This document shows, piece after piece, positions 4,987 through 53,978 of a DNA stretch of 58,469 nt. The DNA lies in contig NZ_JAHESF010000043.1 in NCBI RefSeq assembly GCF_018598225.1, forward strand, positions 1-58,469. The letters are read 5' to 3'. The translations under genes were made by a program, and so were the position numbers. Below the pieces are notes generated by a model. That model had not been told where the DNA came from. It did not search any database and was given only the letters and a program-made list of their open reading frames with translations. Numbering within the stretch: position 1 is the first letter of the stretch; each line of letters opens with the position of its first letter. The DNA is from Chryseosolibacter histidinae (GTDB taxonomy: Bacteria; Bacteroidota; Bacteroidia; Cytophagales; Cyclobacteriaceae).

Positions 4987-5098
4987 GTCGACGGTCCACC
5001 GTCCACAGCAGGAGTGCAAAGTCGTCGGACCACTGACTTGCGCGCAGGTCAGTGCGCAGTGGTCTGACGACTACCTCCCTCGGCCGTGGACCGTCGAC
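4987..5098. repeat. Nested imperfect inverted repeat (two-layer hairpin)
   Basis: An outer pair of perfect 13-bp arms (4987-4999 and 5086-5098) encloses an inner pair of 15-bp arms (5021-5035 and 5057-5071, one mismatch). The centre contains TGCGCGCA. The words GTCCAC/GTGGAC recur several times on the flanks, and the right side continues to 5118. It fills the gap between the B12 riboswitch and the divergent btuF-like gene. A related word string occurs at 24783-24817. Confidence 0.85.
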
Positions 5099-5132
5099 GG
5101 TGGACTGTGGACTATTTACTATTATTGCGTTC

Positions 5133-6272
5133 ATGAAACACTTCTCCATTCCTCTTCTGCTCATGCTGCTCTGCCTGGGTTGCAAACAAAAAGACACAGC
5201 GCAATCCGCAGTTTCAACACCCGGCCCGACATCACTAAACCTGCGGTATGCTGAAGGTTTTAAGATGTCGCTGCTCGGCAACAGCAAACTGGTGGAGGTT
5301 ACATATCCTTATCAGGGCGCCACATCGGGTTACAAATACCTGCTGGTGCCGCGTGGCGAAGCTGTACCTGAGCACGAGCCTGATACGCGGGTGATCTTTA
5401 TTCCACTGCGCAGCATCGTTTGCACGTCCACCACACACATTCCGCTGCTGGATTACCTGGACGAGACCGACAAGCTCGTAGGATTCCCTACCACCGACTA
5501 CATCAGCTCTGAAAAAATGCGCAAGCGGATCGATGAAGGAAAGATCCAGGAGCTTGGCATCGATAAAGGATTGAATCTTGAACGACTTGCATCGCTCAAA
5601 CCCGACGTGGTGATGGGCTACACCCTGAGCAGCGATTACGGCCAGCTGAAGAAAGTAGAAGATCTTGGTGTGCCCGTGATCGTCAACGCCGAGTACCTTG
5701 AAAAACATCCGTTGGGAAGAGCCGAGTGGATCAAGTTCATGGCGATGTTCTTCAACAGGGAGAAGATGGCGGACTCTCTTTTCGTGGAGATTGAAAAAAA
5801 TTATCTGGAGACACAAGCGTATGCCGACACCACCAAACGAAAGCCAACTGTTCTCAGTGGTATTGTGTATGGCGATGCGTGGTTCCTTCCCGGTGGCCAG
5901 AACTATGCTTCGAAGCTGCTCAAGGACGCCGGCTGCAACTACCTGTGGGGAGAAGATCCATCACACGGGTATCTCGAGCTCAGCTTCGAATCGATCTACG
6001 AAAAAGCACGGAATGCCGACCTCTGGATCGGCGTGGCAACGTTCAGCTCACTCGAAGAGCTGAAGATGAAAGATCATCGCTATGCGAAGTTCAAGGCGTT
6101 CCAGCAAAAGCAGGTATACACTTACGATGCCCGCAAGGGTGCCAAGGGAGGAAGTGAATTTATGGAGCTGGGCTATCTGAGACCCGATATTATTTTGAAA
6201 GACCTTGTGAAGATCGCGCACCCGGAATTACTCCCGGACTACACGCTCTATTTTCACAAGAAACTGGAATAA
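5133..6272 (+). CDS. BtuF-like periplasmic substrate-binding lipoprotein
   Basis: A 379-residue ABC-transporter binding protein of the BtuF/FhuD (PF01497) type. The ATG at 5133 gives a lipoprotein signal with lipobox CLGC (Cys17). The first lobe has SIVCTSTTHIPLLDYL and DKLVGFPTTDY, then ASLKPDVVMGY, a long connecting helix, and the second lobe with EDPSHGYLELSFESIYEKARNADLWIG. The residues after Cys17 (KQKD) lack the acidic surface-export run seen in the BtuG-like protein, so a periplasmic location is likely. Divergence from the riboswitch operon makes B12 the probable ligand; iron-siderophore or heme remain possible. No permease or ATPase gene is inside the window. The riboswitch is on the other strand and does not control this gene. 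Confidence 0.8.
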   Translation: MKHFSIPLLLMLLCLGCKQKDTAQSAVSTPGPTSLNLRYAEGFKMSLLGNSKLVEVTYPYQGATSGYKYLLVPRGEAVPEHEPDTRVIFIPLRSIVCTSTTHIPLLDYLDETDKLVGFPTTDYISSEKMRKRIDEGKIQELGIDKGLNLERLASLKPDVVMGYTLSSDYGQLKKVEDLGVPVIVNAEYLEKHPLGRAEWIKFMAMFFNREKMADSLFVEIEKNYLETQAYADTTKRKPTVLSGIVYGDAWFLPGGQNYASKLLKDAGCNYLWGEDPSHGYLELSFESIYEKARNADLWIGVATFSSLEELKMKDHRYAKFKAFQQKQVYTYDARKGAKGGSEFMELGYLRPDIILKDLVKIAHPELLPDYTLYFHKKLE

Positions 6273-6274
6273 GG

Positions 6275-6357
6275 AAAAGAATATAGCATTAGGAGTTAGA
6301 ATTAGCATAGGGAACCCAGCATCATTCTACATGCTAAATTCTATATTCTAAATTCTT
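6275..6357. terminator. Long imperfect hairpin between convergent genes
   Basis: AT-rich words such as GAATATAG, ATTAG and AATTAGCAT on the left recur inverted on the right (ATGCTAAATTCTATATTCT), with a loop near 6312-6330. It sits between the convergent btuF-like and rhodanese genes and could end transcription from both sides. One of the family of word-repeat spacers in this window. Confidence 0.55.
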
Positions 6358-6359
6358 CT

Positions 6360-7736
6360 TTACACTGGTACCTCTTCGCTTACGATCGGCAAGCCTGCTT
6401 TCTGCATGGCACCGAAGCCTCCGTAAACATTGATCAGGTTGCTGAATCCTTTGTTCTTCATGATGGAGATAGCCGTCATCGAACGATAGCCACCGCCACA
6501 GTGAACGATAAAGGGTTTGCTCTTATCGAGGGTTTCGAGGTTGTTCGGGAATTCGGACAACGGCAGGAACGAGGCATCTTTCAAATGGCTGATGTTCCAT
6601 TCACCATGTTTGCGCACGTCGAGCACGGCAACATCACTGTTCGTTGCATCTTTCATCTCATCTGCCGTAATGCTCTTCACGGTCTCGGGTTTCTCATCCC
6701 ACGCGGCTACACCACCGGCGAGGTATCCGATCACGTTCTCGTAACCAACGCGGGCCAGACGAAGCACCGACTCCTGCTCCTTACCTGCTTCGGTGACCAA
6801 CACCAGTTTTTTATTGATATCGATCAGGGTGCCCACCCAAACGGCAAACTGTCCGTTGAGGCCTATGTTGATCGCGCCGGGAATGAATCCTTTTTCAAAA
6901 TCATCGGCGGTGCGGGTATCGAGAATGATGGCGCCTTCTTTCACGGCCTTCCTGAACTGATCAACCGATAAAGGTTTTGTGTTCTCACTGATGATCCTTT
7001 CAAGCGGATCATAACCTTCTTTGTTGATCCGTGCATCCTCATAAAAATACTGGGGAGGAGGAAGAATACCTTCGGTCACTTTTTCGATGAACGCGTCCTT
7101 GCTCATATCTTTCAGCGCGTAGTTCAGCTTCTTCTGTTCGCCGATGGTGGAGAAAGTTTCCTTGCCGATATTTTTTCCGCAGGCTGAGCCAGGTCCGTGG
7201 GCGGGATAAACGATCACATCGTCAGGCAGGGTCTTGATCTTTTTGTTGAGCGATTCATAAAGCATGCCAGCCAGCTCTTCCTGGCTCATCACACCATCGA
7301 GCAGGTCGGGTCTTCCCACGTCGCCCACAAACAAAGTATCGCCCGTAAAGATGGCGTGCTCTTTTCCATTCTCATCGATCAGCAGGTAGCACGAAGATTC
7401 AGGTGTATGTCCGGGAGTATGAAGCACTCTTATTTTTACTTTTCCCAGCACAAACTCCTCACCATCCTTCGCGTTGTAGACCTTGTATTGGGTTTGGGCA
7501 TGAGGTCCGTAGACAATGGGTGCATTCACTTTGCGTGAAAGGTCGATATGGCCCGATACAAAATCGGCATGGAAGTGGGTTTCGAAAACATATTTGATGC
7601 TGGCACCCCTTTTTTCTGCCAGTGCCGTATAAGGTTCAGTCTCCCGCAAAGGATCGATGATCGCCGCCTGGCCTTCGGATTCGATGTAATAGGCTGCTTC
7701 TGCCAGACAGTTTGTATAAAGTTGTTCAATGTACAT
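6360..7736 (-). CDS. Persulfide dioxygenase-like MBL-fold protein with two rhodanese domains
   Basis: A 458-residue fusion. Residues 1-240 are a metallo-beta-lactamase-fold domain with the metal motif THFHADFVSGH (about 52-62), HTPGHTPESSCY and YPAHGPGS, as in ETHE1-type persulfide dioxygenases, which oxidise glutathione or other persulfides to sulfite. Two rhodanese domains follow. The first (about 258-350) has no active cysteine, with TEAGKE at the loop position. The second (about 360-450) has the loop HCGGGYRS with Cys413. Expected to be cytoplasmic and active in sulfide or persulfide detoxification, perhaps handing sulfane sulfur between domains. It is transcribed alone, convergent with btuF-like and divergent from the WG-repeat gene. 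Confidence 0.88.
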   Translation of the reverse strand: MYIEQLYTNCLAEAAYYIESEGQAAIIDPLRETEPYTALAEKRGASIKYVFETHFHADFVSGHIDLSRKVNAPIVYGPHAQTQYKVYNAKDGEEFVLGKVKIRVLHTPGHTPESSCYLLIDENGKEHAIFTGDTLFVGDVGRPDLLDGVMSQEELAGMLYESLNKKIKTLPDDVIVYPAHGPGSACGKNIGKETFSTIGEQKKLNYALKDMSKDAFIEKVTEGILPPPQYFYEDARINKEGYDPLERIISENTKPLSVDQFRKAVKEGAIILDTRTADDFEKGFIPGAINIGLNGQFAVWVGTLIDINKKLVLVTEAGKEQESVLRLARVGYENVIGYLAGGVAAWDEKPETVKSITADEMKDATNSDVAVLDVRKHGEWNISHLKDASFLPLSEFPNNLETLDKSKPFIVHCGGGYRSMTAISIMKNKGFSNLINVYGGFGAMQKAGLPIVSEEVPV

Positions 7737-7864
7737 TTTATCGGATTTTGGGGTGACCGGACCGGCGGCCGGATGAAGAACACCGGTTGTCGATTCGGGT
7801 ACTACGTTTGTCTTAAAAACACCACAAATTTTATAAAAATTCTCAGGATTTCATGAAGTGAATG

Positions 7865-7872
7865 TAACTTTG
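7865..7872 (+). promoter_or_regulatory. Bacteroidota -7 promoter box
   Basis: TAACTTTG matches the TAnnTTTG consensus. It ends 7 nt before the ATG at 7880, so the transcript would have almost no leader. No clear -33 TTG was seen. Confidence 0.5.
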
Positions 7873-7879
7873 CTTTCCG

Positions 7880-10045
7880 ATGGAGCGCGTGTGTCGTATT
7901 TTTTTATTTTACCTGGCCCTGCTAGCTTCCTCCGGCAAACTCTACGGCAATACCCTTCAGGCCTATTTCAGCAGTGTTAAAGGCGGCGATTTCAATGTAT
8001 TTGAAGAAAACGGGAAGGTAGGCTTGAAGAATGAGCAGGGCGAAGTGCTGATCCCGGCCCAGTATGAAGCTATTGGCTGGAGCAATGGCCAGTTCTCGCT
8101 TGTGAACAATGTTACCGGGTACCAGAGCCATGGGCAGTGGGGACTCATCAATATTCAGAACAACCGCATTACAAAACCGGAATACACAGATCTTTCACCC
8201 GGCGAAGGCTCCATGATCGTGGCCCGGAAAAAAATCCAAGGCACTGTTCGCATCCAGGCCGGCTGCATCAATACTTCGGGCAAGGAAGTCATCCCCTTTC
8301 AATACGACGGCCTGCGGATCACATCTTTCCGCGCCATTGTCTACCAGAAGAATGGACATCAGTTCAGGCATGGGCTCATTGATTTTGAGAACAAGCTGCT
8401 CATTCCCATCCAATATCAGAACATCTATCCATTGGGAAGCCTGCGCTACGGCGTGGAGAACTTCGATCATAAAACCGCTATTTTTTCAGAAGACGGCAAG
8501 CAGATCACCAGCTTCATGATCGACAGCCTCTCTACCTATAAAAAAGACTACGCCGTGGTTTACCAGAACCAGCGTCAGGGTCTGATCGACCGCCAGGGCC
8601 AGTTAAAGCTCGAGCCCACCTACCGTGAGATCAGGATCAACGACGACGGCAGCATCAGCGCGCGCCAGGCCGACGCCTGGTTGTGGCTCGATGGCGAGAA
8701 CAAACTGTTGAAACAGTTCAATGCCGATTCCATCACCGTGATCAGCGCAGACAGGCTCAAGGTACAGACGGGAGGACGATCACAGCTCACAGACCTGAAT
8801 TTTAATCCGGTGAATCCCCGGTTCTTTTCAAAGGTAGGATCATTCAAACACGGAAAAGCTTTTTTCAGGAACGACGGCCGCACCGGGATCATCGACCTGC
8901 AGGGCAACGTAATTATCAAGCCACTTTACAGCTCGCTTGTAATGGACCCTCCCTTTATCAGGGCATGCCTTCCAAAAGAGAACAATAACCGGTGGGTGGT
9001 GCTGGACTCAGCCGGCAAAGCGCTGACCGTAAAAAACTACGATCACATCGGCCCCTATAACGGGCGTTATTTTCCCGTAAAGCACCGCGGGTTCTGGGGA
9101 CTCATCGATCAAAACGGAAAAGAGGTCGTTGCCTGTGTTCACGACTCCATTGTGCAGCAGCATCAGGAGCGTGTTGTGGTCAAATTCAAGGGAAGTTATG
9201 GCATCATCAGCACGGAGGAGGATTGGATCGTGACGCCACAACCGAACCGGCTTCAATTGATCAGTGACGACCGTTATCTCGAGCTTGCGCCGAAAACAAA
9301 TTTTCTGAAATCTCCCGGCGGACAGATCATCTATTTCACCAACAACCCGTTCGAGCTCCGGAATGGTCACCTGCTGGAACATCTCCCTTCCGGCATCGTG
9401 TGGAAGATCGACATGAACGGCGTGATCGTTGACCGCTCCCTGCAGCCTGAAAATGTTGAAGAGGTGTTTCCTGAAAGCGAAGGCCTTCGGGCAATCAGGA
9501 AAGACGAGCGTTATGGCTTCATCGACAGTCGGGGAAGGCTGCGCATAGCCAACCGGTATGAAGATGTGAGGGCATTCAGCGGCACACTGGCGGCAGCGAA
9601 GATCAGGGGCAGGTGGGGATTCATCAATCACGAAGACAGGATCGCCATCCAACCCGTGTATGACGAGGTTTCCGCTTTCCGCGATGGCTTTGCCCTGGTG
9701 AAGCAGAAAAATCTTTTCGGTATTGTCGATACCAGTAGCAAGCTGCTGCTGCCCGTACGTTACGATAGCATCATCACCTTGCCTGGCAAAAGATTCCAGG
9801 TACTGCAGAATGGCCTCTGGGGTTTGGCCGATGCCGCTGGCAAAATGATCATCAACCCCAAGTTCGACAGGATCACCGACCTGAACAACGGCTACGTCAT
9901 CATCCAGCGTGAAGGCAAATTCGGATTGCTCAATCTCCACGGCGTCAGCACCATTCCTCAGATCTACGACGGCCTCATCTATGACACCCACCACGGTCAT
10001 TATATCGCCCTGAAAAAGGCTGTGTGGGAAGTGATGAAATTTTGA
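7880..10045 (+). CDS. Secreted WG-repeat protein
   Basis: A 721-residue protein with a signal peptide (residues 1-23) and then about 13 WG repeats to the end. Typical units read GQWGLINIQ...PEYTDL, FWGLIDQNGKEVV, RWGFINHEDRIAIQPVYDEV and LWGLADAAGKMIINPKFDRI. WG repeats form beta-rich solenoid or propeller-like folds, and their role is mostly unknown; surface or periplasmic binding is plausible. The start is fixed because the next Met would remove the signal peptide. It is a single-gene unit ended by a strong terminator at 10083. Middle repeats (around residues 260-330 and 470-520) are eroded. No enzyme motif was seen. Confidence 0.88.
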   Translation: MERVCRIFLFYLALLASSGKLYGNTLQAYFSSVKGGDFNVFEENGKVGLKNEQGEVLIPAQYEAIGWSNGQFSLVNNVTGYQSHGQWGLINIQNNRITKPEYTDLSPGEGSMIVARKKIQGTVRIQAGCINTSGKEVIPFQYDGLRITSFRAIVYQKNGHQFRHGLIDFENKLLIPIQYQNIYPLGSLRYGVENFDHKTAIFSEDGKQITSFMIDSLSTYKKDYAVVYQNQRQGLIDRQGQLKLEPTYREIRINDDGSISARQADAWLWLDGENKLLKQFNADSITVISADRLKVQTGGRSQLTDLNFNPVNPRFFSKVGSFKHGKAFFRNDGRTGIIDLQGNVIIKPLYSSLVMDPPFIRACLPKENNNRWVVLDSAGKALTVKNYDHIGPYNGRYFPVKHRGFWGLIDQNGKEVVACVHDSIVQQHQERVVVKFKGSYGIISTEEDWIVTPQPNRLQLISDDRYLELAPKTNFLKSPGGQIIYFTNNPFELRNGHLLEHLPSGIVWKIDMNGVIVDRSLQPENVEEVFPESEGLRAIRKDERYGFIDSRGRLRIANRYEDVRAFSGTLAAAKIRGRWGFINHEDRIAIQPVYDEVSAFRDGFALVKQKNLFGIVDTSSKLLLPVRYDSIITLPGKRFQVLQNGLWGLADAAGKMIINPKFDRITDLNNGYVIIQREGKFGLLNLHGVSTIPQIYDGLIYDTHHGHYIALKKAVWEVMKF

Positions 10046-10082
10046 AGAACAAGGCATCACATTCCAAGCCAGGACATAAATG

Positions 10083-10107
10083 AAAAAGGGGCCAAGGCCC
10101 CTTTTTT
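10083..10107. terminator. Bidirectional rho-independent terminator
   Basis: A perfect 11-bp stem (AAAAAGGGGCC and its complement) around a 2-nt centre, flanked by A and T runs, so it serves both the WG-repeat gene and floA, which converge here. Confidence 0.92.
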
Positions 10108-10124
10108 ATAACGATCAAAATGTT

Positions 10125-11108: not shown

Positions 11109-11117
11109 GATATAAAT

Positions 11118-11588: not shown

Positions 11589-11642
11589 AATTTCAGATCA
11601 GATCAAAAATAGTCAATAATCAGGACTTCACTGTGCAAATGA

Positions 11643-14491: not shown

Positions 14492-14512
14492 CCGCATCAT
14501 CTAATTGTTTTT

Positions 14513-16060
14513 ATGTCAAGAAAAATTTTCAGGATCGCCCTGACAGCTCTTGTATTGCTTAATTTTTCCGTTGCGTTTGCACAAGACTACGCAGAAACCG
14601 CGTTGCTCTTCAGCAGGACAAGGCCCGCCGGCAGCGCCCGCATCCAGGCACTGGGTGGAAGCCAGATAGCACTGGGTGGTGATTACAGCTCAGGCCTCTC
14701 CAACCCCGCCGGCCTGGGAATGTTCAACCGCTCCGAGTTCACCTTCAGCACGGGCCTTAGCTCGCACAATACCTCAGCGAATTATTTCGGCAATTCCACT
14801 GACGATAACCGCACGGTGTTCAACATTCCCGGTCTCAGCCTCGTGTGGCACATGCCTAAAGACAACGGCGCTTTTTTGGGCGGATCGTTCGGCATCAGCT
14901 TCTCACGTATCAACGACTTCAACAACGCTACGCTTTACAGCGGAAAGAATGACGACAGCTCTATCATCGATTATTTTATCGATCAGGCTTTTGGCCAAAC
15001 CACCGATCAGTTTAAGGAAGGAGGCCGTCATTACAACAGCCCTACAGGACTTGCTTATTACAATTACCTCATCGGAGCGAAGTCGATCCTGGATCCGCCC
15101 GGACCGAATGACGAATACTTTACCGATGCAGGATACCCTGATAAACAGCAGGAAGAGATCCTGGTGAAAGGGGCCTCCAATCAATGGACATTCTCTTACG
15201 GTGCCAACATTTCGGATAGATTCTTCTTCGGCGCCGGCGTTGGGATAGCATCTATCCGGTACAAATCCCAGAAGACATTTACCGAAGATTTTTTACCCGG
15301 CAACCCGAACGATCAGGATACCCTGTACTACCTTCAATTGAATGAAAACCTCGACATCCGCGGCTCAGGCGTGAACGCAACCTTCGGGGCTATTGCCAGG
15401 CCTTTGGACTTTCTGCAAATAGGCGTATCGTTTGTGACGCCAACATTTTACAGCATCTCAGAGACCTACAGCGCTTCCATGGGCACACGGTGGGATAACT
15501 TCGATTACTTCGGCGACGGTAAAGAGATCCTGGGCGACAACGTCAACGATCCTGACCGTCCGCATACCGATGTCGTGACTTCAGATTACAACCTTACCAC
15601 ACCGCTGAAGTTCAATGCGGGTGTTGCATTCATATCCAAATATGGATTTATCTCCGGCGACATCGAGATGGTCAATCCCGCGAAAGCGAAGTACACATCA
15701 GACACGCCGGGTATAACTTACACAGACGAGAATGGAAGCATTCGCCGTAACTATGAACCCGTGATCAACTACCACATCGGTGCCGAGTTCAGATACGAGA
15801 TCTACCGGGTACGCGCCGGATACGGTGTGCTCGCCAATACATACCGCAATAACATCACCTCCAACAACCAGATCACGTCGATCAGCGGTGGCGTGGGCAT
15901 CCGCACCAAAGATTTTTCTATCGATTTTGCCCTGGTGAACAGCAGCAGCAAAAGATACGATTACCAGCCTTACACTTTCTTCGATGGATCAGGCCCGGCA
16001 GCCTCGCTGAAAAACCGGTCGATGATGGGGATGCTTACGTTTGGGTTTACGATAGAGTAG
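14513..16060 (+). CDS. OmpP1/FadL-family outer-membrane protein
   Basis: A 515-residue outer-membrane transporter of the OmpP1/FadL type, predicted to pass hydrophobic compounds. The signal peptide (1-23, ending AFAQ) is followed by the family start ARIQALGGSQIALGGDYSSGLSNPAGLGMFNRSEF. Long alternating beta strands follow, ending MMGMLTFGFTIE with the terminal barrel strand. Bacteroidota members are often labelled hemin receptor or long-chain fatty acid transporter; the substrate cannot be read from sequence. It is the second gene of a unit with the aromatic-rich protein. A perfect hairpin at 16091-16126 follows it. Confidence 0.85.
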   Translation: MSRKIFRIALTALVLLNFSVAFAQDYAETALLFSRTRPAGSARIQALGGSQIALGGDYSSGLSNPAGLGMFNRSEFTFSTGLSSHNTSANYFGNSTDDNRTVFNIPGLSLVWHMPKDNGAFLGGSFGISFSRINDFNNATLYSGKNDDSSIIDYFIDQAFGQTTDQFKEGGRHYNSPTGLAYYNYLIGAKSILDPPGPNDEYFTDAGYPDKQQEEILVKGASNQWTFSYGANISDRFFFGAGVGIASIRYKSQKTFTEDFLPGNPNDQDTLYYLQLNENLDIRGSGVNATFGAIARPLDFLQIGVSFVTPTFYSISETYSASMGTRWDNFDYFGDGKEILGDNVNDPDRPHTDVVTSDYNLTTPLKFNAGVAFISKYGFISGDIEMVNPAKAKYTSDTPGITYTDENGSIRRNYEPVINYHIGAEFRYEIYRVRAGYGVLANTYRNNITSNNQITSISGGVGIRTKDFSIDFALVNSSSKRYDYQPYTFFDGSGPAASLKNRSMMGMLTFGFTIE

Positions 16061-16090
16061 TTGGGTAGACAGTTCCAGGTTTCAGGTTAG

Positions 16091-16126
16091 AAGTTTAAAG
16101 TTGAGGGACCCAACAACTTTAAACTT
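16091..16126. terminator. Perfect 13-bp hairpin between convergent genes
   Basis: Arms AAGTTTAAAGTTG (16091-16103) and its exact complement (16114-16126) with a 10-nt loop. Further copies of the AAACTTTAAA word follow to 16140. It lies between the convergent FadL-like gene and aroK. There is no simple T run directly after the stem, so termination is likely but not certain. Confidence 0.6.
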
Positions 16127-16151
16127 TAAATTTCAAACTTGCCTCTGACGA

Positions 16152-16646: not shown

Positions 16647-16677
16647 AGCTGCGAGTGGGCGAGTTACGAGCTGCGAG
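16647..16677. repeat. Two copies of AGCTGCGAG in a spacer
   Basis: AGCTGCGAG occurs at 16647-16655 and 16669-16677, with the near-match GGGCGAG and TTACGAG between. A third copy is at 24100-24108 after the WD40-caspase gene. Part of the spacer word-repeat pattern. Confidence 0.7.
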
Positions 16678-20866: not shown

Positions 20867-23800
20867 ATGAACAAATTCATACCAATGCTGCTGCTCGCCC
20901 TGGCGTGGCAGTCGTCTGCCCAAACGCTTGAGACCGTGATACAAAAAGGCCATGAGCTGGCAGTAGTGGCCATTGCCGTAAGTCCTGACAGCGCTTTCAT
21001 TGCCACGGCAAGCAAAGACAAGTCTATCAAGTTGTGGGAAACCCGCACAGGCCGCGAAGTGAGAAGTTTTCTCGGTCACGAGATGACGGTCTCGAACATC
21101 ACCTTTTCACGCGACGGTAAATGGTTGCTTTCCGGCAGCTATGATAAGACCGTAAGGATCTGGGACGTTGCCACAGGCAAAGCGCTGCACACCATGGTCA
21201 CCGAAGATATTATTACCGATGTGGTGATGGATCCCCGCATGAAATTTTTTGTGGCCGCGGGATACAATCGCTCCGGCGACCAGGATTCAGCAACGGTGTT
21301 CGACCTAAGAACACGACAAAAGATCGTGAGGCTTCCCGTCAACGCAGACGAAAGCCGCGGCTTCGGTGTCACACTCGCCATCAGCCCTGACGGCCAGTGG
21401 CTGGGATCGGGTGAAGACAACCGCCTGATCAATATTTACAAAACAGCTTCCTGGCAGAAGGTGCACACCTTTCAGTATGAACAAGGCTGGTGCGGCGGAT
21501 GTGCCACTATGCTCACCTTCAGCCCTGACAGCAAGTCTGTGTTTATGGCTTCGCATAATGGCCCCCTCAGGAAATATGACCTGGCCGATGGAAAACTGCT
21601 GAAGGTGTACGAAGAAAAAACGGAAGACCTTACGGGAATTGCTGTTAGCCCCGATGGCAAATGGGTGGCCCGCACCACCGAAAAAAATGCCATGGTGTGG
21701 GAAGAAGCATCGGGGAGGATGGTGGCCACGCTGCCGGCAGAAGAGAAGGCAGAATTTCACAGAACACAGTTCACGCTCGACAGCAAAGAACTGTTGCTGA
21801 CGTCTGACAACAACACGGCCTTCGCATGGAACTACTCCACGCAAAAGAAAACACTGGTCCTTACCGGGTTCCTCAACTCACGCGACCAGGGCGGTTTGAA
21901 TTACGATCCGAATTTTTACTGGCAGTCGGCCATCGCCAAATATGTACGGCTGAAGAATAACCTGCTCATCTCCAGAGACGGGAAAACACTGATCAAGGGC
22001 AAGTTCGGAACGAAAGTAAAACAATGGAACATCGCCAGCGGCAAAGCCGTGATGGAATTTGTGGGCCATAAGAAAGCTGTGCTCTGCTACGACCTGTCTG
22101 CCGACGGAAAAAAACTCCTGACCGGTGGCGGCGATGGCAGGATCATTCTCTGGGACATGCAAACGGGCGATTCTTTAAAAGTGATCGAAACCTATCGCGA
22201 GCCCATCTTCGACATACACTTCAACAGCGACGAAACACTCGTAGCCTCCTCGAGCTGGGACGCTACCATGAAGATCCATAATTTGGAGTCGGGCAAGCTG
22301 CTTACCTACATCGAGTTTGAAAGTTATGCGGCTTACAACATCCTGCTCCATCCGAACGATCTCTATCTGGTTGCCGCGCGTCTCGACAACTCACTCCAGC
22401 TTTACGAGATCGACACAAGAGCAGTGGTAAGAAATTTTGTAGGGCACACGGACGTGATCTCGTCGATCCGCTTCAGCAACGATCAGCAAACATTGATGAG
22501 CACCAGCTGGGATGGCAGCATTCGCCTGTGGGATGTGGGCACAGGACTGATGACCAAAAAATTAAAAGGGCATCGCGGGGCCGTGCTCACGGCTGTATTC
22601 AGCGCCGATGGAAAATACATTTATTCGGCAGGTGCCGACCGCGTGGTCCGAGTGTGGGACCCCGCTACCTCTAAAACCGTAAGAACCTTCGAAGGACACA
22701 AAGCCGAAGTTACCTCGCTGCTGTTCAGCCCCGACAACCGGATGCTTATCAGCCACAGCGTAGACGGCGTAACCAAGTTCTGGGACATCGCTTCGGGGCA
22801 GGAATTCTTCGAGCACATTCACCTGGGCGAAGCAGACTGGATGGTGAAGAACCCTGACGGATATTTCAACGGAACGGATGATGCGCGCAAGTACATTCAT
22901 TTTGTGAGCGGGCTGAAGACCTATTCTGTAGACCAGTTCTTCCAGGAGTTCTACAGGCCCGACCTGTTGCCCAGGATCTTCCAGAACAGGGGCGGCGGCT
23001 CTGATTTGAAAGGCATCCAGGGAAAATTGTCAGATTCACCGCCGCCAACAGTGAAGGTGGCCGTGCTTCAGACAGCACCCGGAAAGGCAGACGTATTGGT
23101 TCGGGTAACGGACAACGGCAGCGGTGTTGCCAGTCTCAAGGTTTATCACAACGGAAAAAGCGTTGCGCTCGATCCTGCGGCGCTGAAGCTTCCCTCGGGC
23201 AAAGGGCAGACCTTTACACTCAAACATCCTGTAGACCTGGTGGGCGGATCCAACACGTTCACGGCAACGGCGAGCAACAAAGACAGGCTGGAGTCAGATC
23301 CGCAGAGCGCCGAGATCTTTTCAGACCATGCGTCGAAGAGCAGCACCTGTCATGTGCTGGCTGTTGGCATCAACCAGTATAAAAATCCGCGCATGAGCCT
23401 GAACTATGCCAAGCCCGATGCGGCTTCGTTCAGCAAGGTGATGGATGAAAAGGGTGTGAACCTCTTTAAATCGATCGAGCTTTATACACTTTACGATGAG
23501 CAGGCTACACGCGACCAGATCCTGTCGAAGCTTGACGAGCTGGCGGCAAAAATAAGTCCTGAAGATGTGTTCATCTTTTATTATGCAGGGCATGGCAGCA
23601 TGGTAGACAACCAGTTCTACTTTATTCCCACAGAAACATTGCGGCTCTATGACGCCTCTTCCCTGAACCGTGAGGCGATCGAGGCGGCAACCTTACAAGA
23701 GAAATTCAGCCGGATCAGGGCGCTGAAACAGTTGATCATTATGGATGCGTGTCAGTCGGGCGGATCGGTTGAGTTGCTGGCCAACAGGGGGGCCAGTGAA

Positions 23801-24100
23801 GAGAAGGCCATCGCGCAGCTCTCAAGAAGCGCGGGCATCCACGTGATGGCCTCTGCCGGCAGCGAGCAGTTTGCCGCCGAGTTCACAGAGCTTGGTCATG
23901 GGCTTTTTACTTATGTGCTCATCCGCGCGTTGCAGGGTGAGGCTGACGGAGCACCCAAAGACGGAAAGGTTACAATCTACGAGCTAAAATCATTCATAGA
24001 TGACCAGGTGCCCGAGATCACCCGCAAGCTGAAAGGAAAACCGCAGTACCCGTATACTTTTTCGCGGGGACAGGATTTTCCCGTAGTGATAGAAGAATAA
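20867..24100 (+). CDS. Secreted WD40-repeat protein with C-terminal caspase (C14) domain
   Basis: A 1077-residue protein with a signal peptide (1-18, ending SSAQ). WD40 repeats fill about residues 25-650 (units such as FSRDGKWLLSGSYDKTVRIWD and FSADGKYIYSAGADRVVRVWD), probably two propellers. A linker with an Ig-like segment (about 700-810: DVLVRVTDNGSGVASLKVYHNGKSV) follows. The caspase-fold domain (about 825-1075) keeps the catalytic pair: His909 in YYAGHGSM and Cys962 in DACQSGG. This is metacaspase/orthocaspase-like and should cleave after basic residues. A signal peptide puts the protease outside the cytoplasm, so cell-envelope processing is more likely than intracellular death. It stands alone, divergent from mgtC. 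Confidence 0.9.
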   Translation: MNKFIPMLLLALAWQSSAQTLETVIQKGHELAVVAIAVSPDSAFIATASKDKSIKLWETRTGREVRSFLGHEMTVSNITFSRDGKWLLSGSYDKTVRIWDVATGKALHTMVTEDIITDVVMDPRMKFFVAAGYNRSGDQDSATVFDLRTRQKIVRLPVNADESRGFGVTLAISPDGQWLGSGEDNRLINIYKTASWQKVHTFQYEQGWCGGCATMLTFSPDSKSVFMASHNGPLRKYDLADGKLLKVYEEKTEDLTGIAVSPDGKWVARTTEKNAMVWEEASGRMVATLPAEEKAEFHRTQFTLDSKELLLTSDNNTAFAWNYSTQKKTLVLTGFLNSRDQGGLNYDPNFYWQSAIAKYVRLKNNLLISRDGKTLIKGKFGTKVKQWNIASGKAVMEFVGHKKAVLCYDLSADGKKLLTGGGDGRIILWDMQTGDSLKVIETYREPIFDIHFNSDETLVASSSWDATMKIHNLESGKLLTYIEFESYAAYNILLHPNDLYLVAARLDNSLQLYEIDTRAVVRNFVGHTDVISSIRFSNDQQTLMSTSWDGSIRLWDVGTGLMTKKLKGHRGAVLTAVFSADGKYIYSAGADRVVRVWDPATSKTVRTFEGHKAEVTSLLFSPDNRMLISHSVDGVTKFWDIASGQEFFEHIHLGEADWMVKNPDGYFNGTDDARKYIHFVSGLKTYSVDQFFQEFYRPDLLPRIFQNRGGGSDLKGIQGKLSDSPPPTVKVAVLQTAPGKADVLVRVTDNGSGVASLKVYHNGKSVALDPAALKLPSGKGQTFTLKHPVDLVGGSNTFTATASNKDRLESDPQSAEIFSDHASKSSTCHVLAVGINQYKNPRMSLNYAKPDAASFSKVMDEKGVNLFKSIELYTLYDEQATRDQILSKLDELAAKISPEDVFIFYYAGHGSMVDNQFYFIPTETLRLYDASSLNREAIEAATLQEKFSRIRALKQLIIMDACQSGGSVELLANRGASEEKAIAQLSRSAGIHVMASAGSEQFAAEFTELGHGLFTYVLIRALQGEADGAPKDGKVTIYELKSFIDDQVPEITRKLKGKPQYPYTFSRGQDFPVVIEE

Positions 24101-24242
24101 GCTGCGAGCAATGAGCCGCCAGTTTCCAGCAGTTGCGGTTTTCCTCGATGCGGCTCGCGACTTTAAAAAGCGGCACGAGGGTTGTATAACATTTTAAAAA
24201 ATAAATCGTAAATTAGTTTAACACCAACCTGATGCAACACAC

Positions 24243-24698: not shown

Positions 24699-24782
24699 AA
24701 CGTGGAATTCTTTTCCCGCCATGGGGAAGAGCAAATGCGACACCGATTTCGCGGGGTAAACCTTTACCACTGGGAAATACTG

Positions 24783-24817
24783 CCGTGGACCGTGGACTAT
24801 CGACTGTGCACTATTTA
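24783..24817. repeat. Dispersed copy of the GTGGAC word repeat
   Basis: The run starting CCGTGGACCGTGGACTAT and ending CGACTGTGCACTATTTA closely matches 5084-5118 upstream of the btuF-like gene: both begin CCGTGGACCGT and end in GACTGTGnACTATTTA. Here it reaches into the kbl stop codon. Confidence 0.75.
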
Positions 24818-26008: not shown

Positions 26009-26320
26009 TCAGTTGAATTTCGGTTTTGGTTTAATGACGGGTTTACCAGGCTTTGCAGGTGATGGCGCTGATGCCGGTGCAGCTGGTGTATCCGGAGTTT
26101 TTTCAACAGCTTTTTCAACAACCTTCGCAACAGGCTCCTTCAGCGGATATTTTCGCCTTACGGGATTGATGAGGTTCAGCTTCTGAACGGTAAAGCTGTT
26201 AACATGCATCTGCTCGAATTCTTTTTTCCACACCTCGAACAGCGCCGGCTCAGCCGCTGAAAAGGCCGGGCCATCTATTTTTTTGCCGATCAGATATTCT
26301 TCAAAATTCACAGGCCCCAA
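26009..26320 (-). CDS. Small hypothetical protein upstream of kbl
   Basis: A 103-residue protein of unknown function. The N-terminal half ([36 protein letters not shown]) is ordered and acidic/aromatic. The C-terminal third is Ala/Pro/Lys-rich (residues 70-103) and likely disordered. The start is non-ATG: TTG at 26320 or, more likely, GTG at 26311, because the TTG overlaps a TATCTTG promoter-like box. It is cotranscribed with kbl (4-nt gap), so it may be linked to threonine catabolism, but nothing in it shows an enzymatic role. Confidence 0.7.
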
Positions 26321-26326
26321 GATAAA

Positions 26327-26472
26327 CCAGGATTTACAGGATTTACAGGATTAATGCAGGATTATTGGATTTCAGGATGAGCAGGTTGAATGCATTTTAT
26401 CTACCGTCTCTATATACTTTAAGTACAACATCACGTTAATCCTGTTAATCCTGAAAATCCAGTCAATCCTGG
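26327..26472. repeat. Imperfect inverted repeat of ACAGGATT words
   Basis: The left arm (26327-26354) repeats CAGGATTTA and CAGGATTAA. The right arm (26436-26472) has the inverted words TTAATCCTG twice, then GAAAATCC and CAATCCTGG. The spacer between kbl-side and tdh-side genes (divergent) is thus mostly a long imperfect hairpin. Confidence 0.8.
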
Positions 26473-26562
26473 TCATTTATTGTGCGAAGGGGACAAAAGG
26501 CAAAATAAAAATCGGTCTGAATTTTAATAGCCTATTCCTGATTAATTTGCCGGCACAACAGC

Positions 26563-27582: not shown

Positions 27583-27625
27583 AGACTCAGGGAAGACTCA
27601 GAGAAGACTCAGGGAAGACTCAGAG
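27583..27625. repeat. Four-copy 11-bp tandem repeat
   Basis: Units AGACTCAGGGA, AGACTCAGAGA, AGACTCAGGGA and AGACTCAGAG alternate G/A, so the true period is 22 bp twice. It lies in the 198-nt gap between the convergent threonine dehydrogenase and T9SS cargo genes. The rest of that gap shows nothing clear. Confidence 0.9.
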
Positions 27626-36319: not shown

Positions 36320-36323
36320 TTGA

Positions 36324-36455
36324 CAGTTGACAATTAGACAATTGACAACGTTCTGGTTTGCAGATTCACGGGCAGGTTGTCAATTGGAGTTGAAGAAAAG
36401 CCCCCCGACCATTACTCCAGCCATTGTCAATTGCCATTTTGTCAATTGTCAACTG
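36324..36455. repeat. Long imperfect inverted repeat of TTGACAATT words
   Basis: The left arm (about 36324-36349) strings CAGTTGACAATTAGACAATTG with variants. The right arm (36423-36455) gives inverted copies, ATTGTCAATTGCCA and TTGTCAATTGTCAACTG. A smaller copy (GTTGTCAATTGGAG) is at about 36378. It separates the EnvC-like gene from tatA in a same-strand gap; tatA probably has its own promoter after it. Confidence 0.85.
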
Positions 36456-36790: not shown

Positions 36791-38227
36791 GTGTTGAAAC
36801 CCTACGCTTCATTTCGAGACATCCGGAACGATCTGCAGCGAGGCTCCCTCTCCTGTCAGGATTTAGTCAGGCACCATCTCTCCAACATTCGTCAGAAAGA
36901 ACACCTCAATGCCTTTTTGAGTGTGTATGAGGCTGAAGCGTTGACCCGCGCAGCTGAAATAGACCAAAAACTTCAAAGTGGTAAGGCCGGCAAGCTCGCC
37001 GGTCTCGTGGTGGGCATCAAGGATGTGCTTGCCTATAAAGATCATCCCCTGCAGGGTGCCAGCAGGATCCTCGACGGATTCATCTCCCAATACAATGCTA
37101 CCGCAGTGCAGCGGCTGCTGGACGAAGATGCTATCATCATCGGCAGGCAGAACTGCGACGAATTTGCCATGGGCTCTTCGAACGAGAACTCGGCCTTCGG
37201 ACCGGTGAAAAACGACCTTGACAACACACGTGTTCCTGGAGGCTCGTCAGGAGGTTCGGCCGTGGCTGTCATGGCAGACCTTTGTCAGATCTCGCTTGGC
37301 TCCGACACGGGTGGCTCCGTAAGACAACCCGCCGCATTTTGTGGCGTTGTCGGACTGAAGCCCACCTACTCCAGGATCTCGCGTCATGGCCTCATCGCCT
37401 ACGGATCATCCTTCGACTGCATCGGCATCTTCGGCAAGTGTGTGGAAGATATTGCCCTCGTGTTGGAAGTGATCGCCGGCGCCGATGCGTATGACAGTAC
37501 CGTGTCGCAGAAACCTGTGCCGTTGTACAGCAGCGATCTCACCGCTGACAATAACAAATCTTATCGCATAGCTTACATACGTGAGCTTTCATCGGAAGGG
37601 CTTCAACCCGAGATCCGCGAAAATATTCTGGCAGCCATTAACCGGCTGAAGGCAGATGGATATACGGTTGAGGAAATCGATTTTCCGTTGATGGAGTACA
37701 TCCTTCCTACCTACTACATTCTCGCTACCGCCGAAGCGAGCTCCAACCTCTCGCGGTTCGACGGTGTAAGGTATGGTTACAGGAGTGACAAGACCACCGA
37801 TTTACATTCGATGTACAAAAAAACCAGATCAGAAGGTTTTGGAAAAGAAGTGCAACGAAGGATTTTATTAGGTACATTTGTATTGAGTGCTCGTTACTAC
37901 GATGCCTACTACACGAAGGCGCAGAAAGTTCGCAGGATCATCCGCGAAAAGACGAAGGAGATTCTCACTAAATACGACTTTATCGTAATGCCCATTACAC
38001 CCACTACGGCTTTTAAGCTGGGTGAGCATACCGATAATCCGCTGGAGATGTACTTGGCAGATCTTTTTTCCGTTCAGGCTAATGTGGTGGGTGTTCCCGC
38101 CATCTCGGTACCCTGCGGAAAAGACAGGAACGGGCTGCCCATCGGACTGCAAGTGATTGCGGATGACTTCGAAGAATCGAAACTTTTACATTTTTCAAAC
38201 ATTATCATGAAATCCGGCCAGGCATGA
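36791..38227 (+). CDS. gatA: Aspartyl/glutamyl-tRNA amidotransferase subunit A
   Basis: A 478-residue amidase subunit that releases ammonia from glutamine to convert Glu-tRNA(Gln) and Asp-tRNA(Asn) in the GatCAB complex. The Ser-cisSer-Lys triad is present as Lys77 (VVGIKDVL), Ser152 (PGGSSGGSA) and Ser176 (SDTGGSVRQPA). GLKPTYSRISRHGLIAYGSSFD follows. The start is GTG at 36791, directly after the tatA stop, with a TTG next to it as an alternative. It overlaps mltD by 4 nt (ATGA). gatB and gatC are not in the window. Confidence 0.96.
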   Translation: MLKPYASFRDIRNDLQRGSLSCQDLVRHHLSNIRQKEHLNAFLSVYEAEALTRAAEIDQKLQSGKAGKLAGLVVGIKDVLAYKDHPLQGASRILDGFISQYNATAVQRLLDEDAIIIGRQNCDEFAMGSSNENSAFGPVKNDLDNTRVPGGSSGGSAVAVMADLCQISLGSDTGGSVRQPAAFCGVVGLKPTYSRISRHGLIAYGSSFDCIGIFGKCVEDIALVLEVIAGADAYDSTVSQKPVPLYSSDLTADNNKSYRIAYIRELSSEGLQPEIRENILAAINRLKADGYTVEEIDFPLMEYILPTYYILATAEASSNLSRFDGVRYGYRSDKTTDLHSMYKKTRSEGFGKEVQRRILLGTFVLSARYYDAYYTKAQKVRRIIREKTKEILTKYDFIVMPITPTTAFKLGEHTDNPLEMYLADLFSVQANVVGVPAISVPCGKDRNGLPIGLQVIADDFEESKLLHFSNIIMKSGQA

Positions 38228-51857: not shown

Positions 51858-51872
51858 CCTATCTGACCACAG

Positions 51873-51902
51873 CCCTTTGAGGGTTAAAAACCGCTCAAAG
51901 GG
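51873..51902 (+). terminator. Hairpin after sprA
   Basis: CCCTTTGAG (51873-51881) and CTCAAAGGG (51894-51902) form a 9-bp stem, and the loop GGTTAAAAACC adds four more pairs. No T run follows directly, so efficiency is uncertain. Confidence 0.6.
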
Positions 51903-51937
51903 TTGATCGAAGACCCGACAGGTATCAGGAATTTCCT

Positions 51938-51945
51938 TATTTTTG
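51938..51945 (+). promoter_or_regulatory. gcvH promoter -7 box
   Basis: TATTTTTG fits TAnnTTTG and ends 26 nt before the gcvH ATG at 51972, so gcvH can be transcribed separately from sprA. Confidence 0.5.
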
Positions 51946-51971
51946 GACCTTCATAAAAAAACTCATTAACC

Positions 51972-52346
51972 ATGAATATCCCCGACGGACTCAAGTACAC
52001 CAAAGACCATGAATGGATCAAAATTGATGGCAACACCGCCATTGTAGGCATCACTGATTTTGCACAGGGCGAGCTGGGCGATATCGTTTACATCGATATT
52101 ACCACTGTAGGCCAGGAAGTAAATGAGCATGAGGTGTTTGGAACCGTGGAGGCCGTAAAGACCGTGTCTGACCTGTTCATGCCGGTGTCGGGAAAAGTGC
52201 TGGAGGTGAACCCGTTGCTGGATGCCAGCCCGGAAAAGGTAAATGAAGATCCCTATGGCGAAGGATGGATGATCAAAATGGAGCTCAAAGGCTCTGTTGC
52301 CGGTCTTCTTTCAGCCGCCCAGTACAAGGAACTTATTGGAAAGTAA
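51972..52346 (+). CDS. gcvH: Glycine cleavage system H protein
   Basis: A 124-residue lipoyl-carrier protein that shuttles the aminomethyl group between GcvP, GcvT and the lipoamide dehydrogenase. The lipoylation Lys63 is in [16 protein letters not shown]; the N-terminal [35 protein letters not shown] and C-terminal [13 protein letters not shown] are characteristic. Its lipoyl group would be completed by LipA, encoded 105 nt downstream. GcvP is at 55752 in the same direction; GcvT is not in the window. Confidence 0.97.
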
Positions 52347-52366
52347 ATCGCTTTATTAGATGTGAG

Positions 52367-52418
52367 TCCCGATAGCGATCGGGATGAGACACACAGATTT
52401 TTCCCAGTCTGGTGTCTC
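52367..52418. repeat. Paired palindromes between gcvH and lipA
   Basis: TCCCGATAGCGATCGGGA (52367-52384) has 7-bp arms around AGCG. Directly after it, GAGACAC (52386-52392) pairs with GTGTCTC (52412-52418), extended by CAGA/TCTG. Flanking TTAGATGTGAG (from 52357) and TCTCATGTCTGAAATCTAA (to 52440) also match inverted. The gap is another example of the word-repeat hairpins. Confidence 0.8.
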
Positions 52419-52451
52419 CCTTCTCATGTCTGAAATCTAACCAATCGACCG

Positions 52452-53339
52452 ATGATCGAGCTGCCCGTAATCTCGCAGGAAGAGACCCGTAAGCGCAAAC
52501 CCGACTGGCTTCGTGTGAAGCTTCCCGTGGGACCCGATTACGCCAGGGTACGCAAGCTTGTGGACAATTATAAGCTTCACACCATTTGCGAGAGTGGCAA
52601 TTGCCCCAACATGGGCGAATGCTGGGGAGCCGGTACCGCTACTTTTATGATCCTGGGCAACGTCTGCACCCGCAGCTGCACGTTCTGCGCCGTAGCCACA
52701 GGCCGCCCTACCGAATACGATACAGAAGAACCCAAACGCGTTGCTGAAGCCATCAAACGTATGGAAGTGAAGCACGCGGTGATCACGTCTGTGAACCGTG
52801 ACGAGCTGAAAGACCGCGGCGCCGAGATCTGGTACCAGACGGTTGTTGAAACCAAGAAGATCAGCCCTGAAACAACCATCGAAACATTGATCCCCGATAC
52901 CAAGGGAAACTGGGAAGCACTCTATCGCATGATTGAAGGTGGCCAGGAAGTGGTTTCGCACAACATGGAAACAGTAAGCAGACTGTACCGGAATGTGCGC
53001 CCGCAAGCCAAGTACGAGCGAAGCCTCGAGCAGATCAAACGCATTCGCGAAGCGGGCAAAAGAACAAAGTCGGGTATTATGCTCGGCCTGGGCGAAACGA
53101 AAGAAGAAGTTTTTAAAGCCATGGATGATCTCGTTCAGCATGGCCTGCTCATCCTCACGCTCGGCCAGTACCTGCAGCCTACCAAACTTCACCACGAGGT
53201 GATCGAATTCATTCATCCCGATACATTTGAACTCTATCGTGAAGAAGGCCTGAAACGCGGCTTGAAATACGTGGAGTCAGGACCGCTCGTTCGCTCTTCG
53301 TATCACGCCGAGCGCCACGTGAACGTTCCGCTTGATTGA
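52452..53339 (+). CDS. lipA: Lipoyl synthase
   Basis: A 295-residue radical-SAM enzyme that inserts two sulfurs into protein-bound octanoyl groups. The auxiliary cluster cysteines are Cys46, Cys51 and Cys57 ([12 protein letters not shown]), and the radical-SAM cluster Cys72, Cys76 and Cys79 (CTRSCTFC). The C-terminal [11 protein letters not shown] holds the serine that ligates the auxiliary cluster. The usual RDDLxDGG motif reads [10 protein letters not shown]. The clear client in this window is GcvH. There is no lipB nearby. Confidence 0.96.
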
Positions 53340-53370
53340 TTTTTCCCGGCGCTTCAAAGCCCGCTTGACA

Positions 53371-53409
53371 GTTGCCATTGTGTAATGTGCTTCTCACATT
53401 GCTGGCAAC
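53371..53409 (+). terminator. Hairpin after lipA
   Basis: GTTGCCA (53371-53377) and TGGCAAC (53403-53409) pair, with inner AATGTG/CACATT extending the stem. It lacks a T run. The rest of the 247-nt gap to the small lipoprotein gene shows no gene. Confidence 0.45.
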
Positions 53410-53586
53410 CTGCTGCCGGTATTAAAAAATATTATTCGCTTATCCCATCCGTTGCAAAGGATTGCAATCTCTGTAATGCCGCTGATGTTTCCCCGGCACA
53501 ATAATTTTTTCTACAGTGCAATCAAAAATATTAACCGTTGCCTGAGACCAGGCAGCTAAAACTATGTTAAACTAAACTGTGAAAAA

Positions 53587-53790
53587 ATGAAAAAGCTCAT
53601 ATTCATTCTACTGGCTGCAGCTGCGATCAGTTGCGGCGACAGAAATAGCCGGTCAAGCGAACGAGAGAACGATGCTGACAACACCGAAACCGTTGAACCC
53701 GATACCACCGGAATGGAATCCGAAGCACCCGGTGTAGAAAGTGACACCACAAGAAGACAACAACAAAGTGATACACTGAACAATAAGTAA
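53587..53790 (+). CDS. Small lipoprotein
   Basis: A 67-residue lipoprotein with signal peptide and lipobox AISC (Cys16), then a highly charged, likely disordered mature part rich in Asp, Glu, Ser, Thr and Arg. There is no domain and I do not recognise a family. The mature peptide is mostly acidic (ERENDADNTETVEPDTTGME), as in small Bacteroidota entericidin-like or envelope lipoproteins, so surface or periplasmic anchoring is likely. It is transcribed alone and ended by a strong terminator at 53805. Confidence 0.75.
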   Translation: MKKLIFILLAAAAISCGDRNSRSSERENDADNTETVEPDTTGMESEAPGVESDTTRRQQQSDTLNNK

Positions 53791-53804
53791 GCGATCGCTT
53801 CAAT

Positions 53805-53835
53805 AAAAAAGCGGGTTGTTTTAACCCGCTTTTTT
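53805..53835 (+). terminator. Rho-independent terminator
   Basis: A run of A, then GCGGGTT and its complement AACCCGC around a 5-nt loop, then a T run. The A and T tracts lengthen the stem to about 13 bp, so it may work both ways. Confidence 0.92.
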
Positions 53836-53902
53836 ATTCTAATTTACTTCGTTCAGAAACCAATCGTTGAGTTCAGAATCAATCGTTGAGCCTCCCCTAC
53901 CC

Positions 53903-53978
53903 CTTCTGACTCCTAACTTCTGGCTCCTGACTTCTGGCTTCTGGCTCCTGACTTCTATTCTTACTCCTGGCTTCTTTT
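53903..53978. repeat. CTCCTGACTTCTGG word-repeat spacer
   Basis: About seven near-copies of CT(C/T)CTGACTTCTGG-type words run directly up to the stop of the M28 gene. Just before it, AATCGTTGAG occurs twice (around 53863 and 53881). The direct repeats are not evenly spaced, so this is not a CRISPR or a clean tandem repeat. Confidence 0.85.

Follow-up and report, generated by a model that had tools for sequence, protein, structure and literature searches.

What are the short, near-identical words that recur in the gaps between genes of Chryseosolibacter histidinae, and how did they come to be there? The question is raised by a stretch of 58,469 nucleotides (the window; C60:1-58469 of genome G000, 8.04 Mb in 122 contigs), in which an earlier note, made from the letters alone, had described word repeats of one shared style in 11 gaps. 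Our analysis partly confirms that observation. It is genuine and widespread, yet it has to be re-described, since the words are mostly degenerate heptamers repeated in tandem. At a probability of roughly 0.55, we favor the explanation that the arrays are populations of small non-coding, non-autonomous hairpin repeat elements whose arms are heptamer arrays, comparable to the hairpin-forming doublets of repetitive extragenic palindromic (REP) sequences known as REPINs.

The seven-base period is demonstrated in a sample of 1.653 Mb from G000, which holds 986 spacers of 20-1500 bp and 209,535 bp of spacer DNA. Near-repeats were concentrated at lags of 7 (1983), 14 (1788) and 21 (868), compared to 9, 16 and 8 in one shuffle of the same spacers. 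All other lags from 3 to 40 gave at most 250 near-repeats, and the lag-7 count in the coding control was 0. The sample contains 480 period-7 arrays (20 in one shuffle), spread over 302 of the 986 spacers, or about a third. In a smaller sample of 858 kb (the window plus 800 kb), where genes were called with a home-made hexamer caller, none of 100 dinucleotide shuffles reached the direct-repeat score in 115 of 403 spacers of 40-500 bp, and none reached the inverted-repeat score in 131. Only 11 (direct) and 1 (inverted) of 403 length-matched coding pieces beat all 100 shuffles. Three of the words gave 0 matches in G000 when their patterns were reversed. An origin in chance or faulty gene calling, with low-complexity spacer DNA mistaken for structure, could draw on the home-made caller and on the 2 of the 11 gaps that do not beat their shuffles; the controls above already refute it, and we assign it next to no probability.

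When consensus heptamers were clustered up to rotation and strand, with one mismatch allowed, 14 clusters were present in at least five spacers. Some of these are surely splits of one family, and the genome carries about a dozen families. The largest clusters are ACAGTCC (79 arrays in 61 spacers), AACCGGC (77 in 49) and AAACTTT (76 in 56), followed by ACCTCGT (49 in 35), AATCGGT (35 in 23), AATTGAC (25 in 20), AAGGAGT (22 in 20), AGATATG (20 in 17) and ACCATGG (18 in 16). Most unit positions in the well-populated families are 80-100% conserved; at one or two positions the base varies, mostly between A and G. The families are rare in genes, with 2 of 86, 1 of 66 and 0 of 43 matches to three family patterns falling inside called genes. 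The words, which had been taken to differ from gap to gap, are therefore not gap-specific; most are members of dispersed families whose period is 7 bp. Two sites in the window have other periods (9 at 26327 and 11 at 27583).

Arrays of the same family are paired as inverted repeats. Among neighboring arrays of one cluster no more than 200 bp apart in the larger G000 sample, 105 pairs are inverted and 4 are direct. The order of the two arms is uniform in every cluster (28/28, 19/19, 18/18, 14/14, 12/12, 4/4, 3/3, 2/2, 2/2, 2/2 and one single pair), which gives 105 of 105 overall. Because an inverted repeat is identical when read from either strand, arm order characterizes the element itself, whichever strand is read. 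Genome-wide pattern searches also covered G002, from the same genus as G000, and G365, from another family. Among the matches listed (100 of 312 and 94 of 170 in G000, 63 of 84 in G002 and 13 of 20 in G365), facing pairs stood in the expected order in 11 of 11 and 12 of 12 cases in G000 (3 and 2 of them already in the sample), 5 of 5 in G002 (2 already in the sample) and 3 of 3 in G365. Direct neighbors among the same matches numbered 0 and 2 in G000, 4 in G002 and 0 in G365.

A typical element has a left arm of about two to four degenerate heptamers, a poorly conserved loop whose usual length varies with the family and, as its right arm, the same heptamers inverted. Loops measure 61-120 bp in 27 of 28 GTTRCCR elements and 2-37 bp in 13 of 14 RTACGAR elements, and some contain arrays of another family, that is, elements are nested. 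With nested arrays unmasked, loops are rich in words resembling GTGCRGTGTT and in CTTCGAT / CGAAGCAC words; CGAAGCAC occurs in 8 of 87 loops where 0.4 are expected. The GTTRCCR elements at C34:120371, 123227 and 124361, like others in G000, carry GGATAGCCAGTT / GGATGGCCGGTT between arm and loop. By eye this mark is usually one-sided, and such an asymmetry would give the elements a direction.

The same design is found with other words in a sister species. In G002, period 7 again predominates (768 vs 5 shuffled), and 149 arrays (11 shuffled) occupy 85 of 522 spacers. Inverted pairs outnumber direct pairs 28 to 6, arm order is uniform within each family, and the words differ from those of G000. 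Arrays are few in two word-poor samples, namely 6 vs 2 shuffled in 212 kb of G017, from the same family as G000, and 2 vs 2 in 54 kb of G001, a third member of the genus. We dropped a universal unit GTNNNNR, which fits 8 of 11 G000 families in the left-arm reading, because the seed had been chosen to start with GT and because most G002 families misfit.

We compared orthologous gaps between 1.65 Mb of G000 and 0.88 Mb of G002, at a median protein identity of 66%. Of 154 such gaps, 122 lack arrays, 17 hold them in G000 only, 11 in G002 only and 4 in both, a few of the G002 "arrays" being A-rich runs. No gap shares a word (0/154), and all four doubly occupied gaps hold different words. Independence predicts 21 x 15 / 154 = 2 doubly occupied gaps, so there is no clear excess. 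Occupied and empty orthologous gaps differ in length, for example 173 vs -1, 136 vs 1 and 111 vs -4 bp. Orthologues in G002, G001 and G017 measure 18, 13 and -8 bp for the 91-bp window spacer at 16061, and 84, 70 and 78 bp for the one of 251 bp at 26312; by eye, all of them lack the words. The word of the element at 36320 is likewise absent, by eye, from the G002 gap (134 bp) and the G017 gap (221 bp). The gap orthologous to 24783 holds a hairpin of another word in G002 and a structure resembling a classical terminator in G001 (by eye). Gap by gap, therefore, structure is largely absent from the same place in sister species, an outcome that the earlier note had named as speaking against its idea; equivalent structures do exist, with other words and in other gaps. 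A sister species that has the same design with different words suggests that the arrays act as small DNA elements which appear and disappear over time.

Some words recur patchily outside the genus. GTTRCCR, searched as about three units in a row, has 294 matches in G000. Of 390 genomes in the order, 15 (G000 among them) contain at least one match. The other counts were 21 in G365, 12 in G286, 11 in G151, 11 in G353, 10 in G130, 6 in G175 and lower numbers in the others; with the pattern reversed, single matches occurred in 2 genomes of the order. In five of 11 foreign GTTRCCR loci two arms face each other, each time arranged as in G000 (L295, L297 and L298 by scan, L293 and L299 by eye). The remaining six have one arm or none, and one of these six contains masked letters. 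Across 28 chosen genomes, GTCSACR has 312 matches in G000 and none in G001, G002 or G017; three genomes from two other genera of the same family have 7, 4 and 3. RTACGAR has 170 in G000 and then 4 and 1. The G002 word GCTNCAA has 84 matches in G002, 20 in G365 and 0 in G000 and G001, and the three G365 pairs mentioned above have the G002 arm order. Patchy recurrence of some words with the same order is thus demonstrated, and it suggests transfer or repeated loss.

Word hairpins were also seen further afield. In 80 named Bacteroidota loci, z exceeded 4 for direct repeats in 11 of 421 spacers and for inverted repeats in 51 of 421. Hairpins of other words occur at L075:290-352 and L019:12628-12765, in two named Bacteroidota metagenome-assembled genomes. 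At L293 (genome G101), a compact GTTRCCR facing pair at about 1499-1563 lies in frame within an open frame of 645 codons with a GPPGTGKT motif, so it is not intergenic but a word hairpin within a gene.

Could each hairpin instead have grown in place, as the earlier note proposed? Slippage in 7-bp steps combined with template switching would build an array and its inverted copy locally. This fits the 7-bp period, and for heptamer repeats at large an explanation by a polymerase contact of 7 nt has been put forward (as cited in PMC4692102 and PMC4679880). Slippage predicts identical neighboring units. Counting runs of exact units, identical neighbors are strongly enriched in the G002 family [AG]AT[TC]TNA (36 observed vs 8.9 expected). 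However, they are depleted in GTCSACR (19 vs 36.5), GTTRCCR (21 vs 47.2), RTACGAR (15 vs 22.1) and GCTNCAA (2 vs 10.6), and neutral in GTTTNAR (46 vs 45.3) and GTRWYCR (15 vs 11.4). With four families depleted, two neutral and one enriched, slippage is possible in places. Local growth also leaves unexplained why families are common to up to 61 spacers, why arm order is uniform, and why the same word and order recur in other genera and families. As a general account we consider it improbable. Adjacent unit variants were non-independent beyond all 1000 shuffles in three of five families; we did not count this as a sign of copied blocks of units because the depletion of identical neighbors may fully account for it.

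The arrays are not placed evenly relative to genes. The proportion of spacers with arrays is 83/170 for convergent, 175/621 for same-strand and 44/195 for divergent gene pairs (convergent vs divergent, Fisher P = 1.8e-7), which bears out the statement that the architecture is shared across all gene orientations. The convergent excess is strong in spacers of 40-200 bp (60/114, against 76/330 same-strand and 5/73 divergent) and fades at 400-1500 bp (7/14, 27/63 and 20/51). In 78 of the 83 convergent gaps the outer array edge lies no more than 15 bp from a stop codon, with a median of 2 bp from the nearer stop. In same-strand gaps the median distance of arrays is 10 bp to the stop codon upstream and 78 bp to the start codon downstream. 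These data demonstrate a position just after stop codons.

Such positions could mean that function came first, with the arrays selected as bidirectional terminators or 3'-end stabilizers drawn from a genome-specific lexicon, much as Neisseria and Haemophilus reuse uptake sequences as terminators. The enrichment in convergent gaps and the closeness to stops are in line with this. So is the lower share of intrinsic terminators among array-holding convergent gaps of 40-400 bp (8 of 76) than among those without arrays (19 of 69; P = 0.010); in same-strand gaps there is little difference (14/146 vs 41/335). In the orthologous gaps at 10046-10124 and 24699-24810, by eye, one species has a classical-terminator-like structure where another has a word hairpin. 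However, neutral insertion with promoter avoidance yields the same positions, 44 divergent spacers hold arrays, and the G001 and G017 samples are nearly array-free. The arrays do not have the form of classical intrinsic terminators, in which a compact G+C hairpin precedes a run of T, and their arms are often far apart. The terminator counts in convergent gaps uphold the view that plain terminators are insufficient as an explanation. RNA folding gave a divided result, in which all five two-armed elements of the window beat shuffles (z -3.0 to -6.7) and the three one-sided arrays tested folded no better than shuffles. Selection for wobble pairing in RNA was rejected, since G.U is not in excess over A.C in the transcribed direction (26 to 27 for ++ gaps and, on the opposite strand, 25 to 20 for -- gaps). 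We judge selection for function rather unlikely as the origin of the arrays.

We return to hairpin elements that are copied as units, the explanation we prefer. The whole unit, arms and loop together, would be copied to new sites by some enzyme or by DNA exchange. Insertions would mostly survive only where promoters are spared, so convergent gaps and 3' ends would be favored because insertions that hit promoters are lost. The hairpins may later act as bidirectional terminators or 3'-end structures, and single arrays may be decayed halves of elements. Slippage that removes perfect repeats and hairpin nucleases that remove perfect palindromes would together favor imperfect versions. Given dispersed words, fixed order, presence or absence of whole elements and patchy sharing, a copied unit is the simplest account, and from these comparisons of sequence we infer that the elements probably move.

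Several observations weigh against this explanation. The 105 paired elements show no target-site duplication, the hallmark of miniature inverted-repeat transposable elements (MITEs) of DDE transposons, since the longest repeat that their two flanks have in common is like that of permuted flanks; because element boundaries are uncertain, a short duplication could be missed. No mobilizer was identified, as Y1 transposases number 4, 4, 5 and 2 in G000, G001, G002 and G017 whatever the word load. Flanks of about 1.5 kb per side contain arrays at one of four Y1 genes in G000, none of four in G001, one of five in G002 and none of two in G017; with no association seen, mobilization by REP-associated tyrosine transposases (RAYTs) was rejected. 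Gain and loss are indistinguishable at 66% median protein identity. Loops resemble one another far less than arms do and are mostly unalike, with a score of at least 14 in 37 of 1770 loop pairs (1 shuffled), or 27 of 1770 (5 shuffled) once nested arrays are masked. The closest loop copies are three that lie within 4 kb on C34. A likeness of loops across families was discarded because it mostly vanishes after masking, which leaves 6 of 1225 between-family pairs, near chance. If loops were not copied, something else would have to spread the arms or keep them alike. Finally, the two arms of an element in G000 match each other worse than arms swapped within the family (1529 vs 1640; 0/2000 and 0/3000 permutations, five families, 91 elements), also when arms are trimmed to 21 or 14 nt, and simple copying does not predict this. 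The tendency is opposite in G002 (258 vs 245.5 swapped, 20 elements), so own-arm mismatch was rejected as a general rule. Correlation of arm lengths was rejected as its cause, none being significant.

Within the window itself, the shared word-repeat style is clear in seven of the 11 gaps, in two of these as direct repeats only, and weak in two more (Table 1). The other two, 24100-24160 (direct 81/200, inverted 173/200) and 52357-52440 (direct 181/200, inverted 12/200), do not exceed their shuffles. The words had been said to return inverted in most gaps; this holds in five of the 11, where both the direct and the inverted signal are clear. A 201-bp query from the 26325 element had 55 matches in G000, with itself included and arms counted apart.

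Table 1. Word-repeat features in the window. Gap tests compare the best direct or inverted self-match with 200 dinucleotide shuffles and give the shuffles that reach the observed score; gap limits are our own gene boundaries, and 4927-5264 and 53880-53978 were used for two long gaps. z, RNA folding against shuffles.
Position	Feature	Words and period	Remarks	Gap	Direct	Inverted	Outcome
4987..5006	left arm	family GTCSACR (word GTCCACG), period-7 array	among the 105 inverted pairs	4987-5118	0/200	0/200	clear
5084..5123	right arm of 4987 element	GTGGACY reading	preceded by 77-bp loop; z -6.7 for 4984-5124				
6278..6303	left arm	AGAATTT / TTAGAAT	inverted repeats with 6337-6351	6275-6357	0/200	2/200	clear
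6323..6356	right arm	ATTCTAA heptamers, period 14 too	z -3.4				
16072..16102	left arm	GTTTNAR, period-7 array		16060-16142	0/200	0/200	clear
16115..16140	right arm	AACTTTA	z -3.0; 1/200 shuffles folds equally well				
16647..16677	weak site	AGCTGCGAG	single 9-bp word twice within 31-bp gap	16647-16677	1/200	96/200	weak
24783..24805	weak single short array	GTCSACR family (GTGGACY reading)	dispersed family	24783-24817	4/200	186/200	weak
26325..26394	left arm	CAGGATTTA, period 9 then 11		26327-26472	0/200	0/200	clear
26427..26476	right arm	TTAATCCTG	z -6.3				
27583..27625	one-sided array	AGACTCAGGGA, period 11		27583-27625	0/200	181/200	direct only
36320..36349	left arm	TTGACAA/TTGACAG	immediately after stop codon	36324-36455	0/200	0/200	clear
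36424..36455	right arm	TTGTCAA	z -5.9				
53903..53956	one-sided array	YTCTGRC, period 7 and 14	past a classical-terminator-like structure (by eye)	53903-53978	0/200	122/200	direct only

The GTCSACR element at 4987 adjoins a cobalamin riboswitch at 4683-4917 on the minus strand (89 bits), the only Rfam match within the window, and a gene with PF01497 (periplasmic-binding protein) ends at 6272, near both. In the G002 orthologue of 6273-6359 (L161, G002:C1), by eye, the ATTCTAA hairpin is replaced by hairpins of CCCTTCTCC / GGAGAAGGG and CCCCTCTCC / GGAGAGG type, followed by GGGGGTGAGGTG. At 52367-52384 there is a palindrome, CCCGATAGCGATCGGG. Among 509 spacers, the similar GCTATCGGGA was present in 17 and GAAGGATCCC in 14; such palindromic words are dispersed too and are not heptamer arrays. 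A long WD40-repeat protein of 1077 aa is encoded at 20867-24100 on the plus strand. The protein encoded at 36791-38227 has its best matches among named genomes in Chryseosolibacter indicus (82%) and Dawidia soli (81%), in line with a place in Cytophagales, Bacteroidota.

Bacterial heptamer repeats have long been noted, and there is no agreed reason why they are seven bases long, intergenic and paired. About a dozen families with fixed order, together with a sister species that uses other words, amount to many replicates of one process, which makes local slippage and a moving unit separable. The elements are also candidates for bidirectional terminators whose repertoire changes from species to species. 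More ambitiously, they might form a class of mobile hairpins with tandem-array ends instead of fixed terminal repeats and many families per genome, spread among distant members of the order by a new enzyme or process and replaced wholesale within a genus; this we put forward only tentatively.

How do these arrays compare with known systems? The short tandemly repeated repetitive (STRR) sequences of cyanobacteria likewise comprise several degenerate heptanucleotide families in one genome, and in a cyanobacterial trnL intron heptamers build a stem. The 7-bp unit and intergenic location of heptanucleotide tandem repeats of the STRR or long simple sequence repeat (LSSR) type are both present here. 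DNA uptake sequences occur inside genes too, and the arrays do not fit that class, with about a dozen families that are rarely in genes. A REP end carries a constant tag, GTAG or CGTC; by eye, no constant outer-flank tetranucleotide is present in 46 elements of two families. We found no description of these families in Cytophagales in the literature searched, which left out most subscription journals. Nor did we find reports of so many families in one genome, of an arm order fixed family by family or of one lexicon taking the place of another between species of a genus.

Neisseria and Pasteurellaceae have uptake-sequence terminators (Kingsford et al. 2007, PMC1852404) that also reuse a dispersed short word at gene ends, as closely spaced complementary pairs in a preferred configuration, but they consist of one word of about 9-11 nt in at least 1000 copies, unlike the many heptamer families, arrays and long loops here. 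The TAACTGA repeats of Beggiatoaceae, some Cyanobacteria and five Bacteroidetes (MacGregor 2015, PMC4679880) are intergenic heptamer arrays with a patchy phylogenetic distribution. Unlike ours, they are built of one heptamer, lie mostly just before start codons and form 169 direct sets and one inverted set in the main genome. The BrickBuilt MITE of Porphyromonas gingivalis (PMC4596501), also from Bacteroidota, places a minisatellite in a small intergenic inverted-repeat element. However, its 23-nt unit is present in 19 copies and forms a central tandem repeat between small inverted ends, whereas here the tandem repeats themselves are the inverted arms.

Heptamer arrays, their intergenic place and facing pairs are already known from Xanthomonas. 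The GGGAATC heptamers of Xanthomonas and the GGGGA(C/T)T heptamers of Nostoc (Rehm et al. 2015, PMC4692102) are, like ours, degenerate 7-nt tandem units in intergenic DNA, scarce between divergent genes and frequently close to stop codons. In Xanthomonas, 70 and 75 close pairs are "always" one per strand and convergent, a fixed polarity that ours share; facing pairs are few in Nostoc. That report describes one G-rich, quadruplex-forming family, most of whose repeats lie between the same genes in two species with very variable length and sequence. In contrast, about a dozen families stand side by side here, a species of the same genus uses other words, and none of 154 orthologous gaps shares a word. 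REPINs, the REP doublets associated with RAYTs (Bertels and Rainey 2011, PMC3116915), are the mechanistic analogue. They are extragenic, hairpin-forming inverted doublets with conserved arms and a less conserved spacer, several groups occur per genome, and singlets are read as remnants. The elements described here share the inverted hairpin doublets, the fixed arm order and the several groups per genome. They differ from REPINs in lacking a consistent RAYT neighbor and in having arms of tandem heptamers rather than a single REP.

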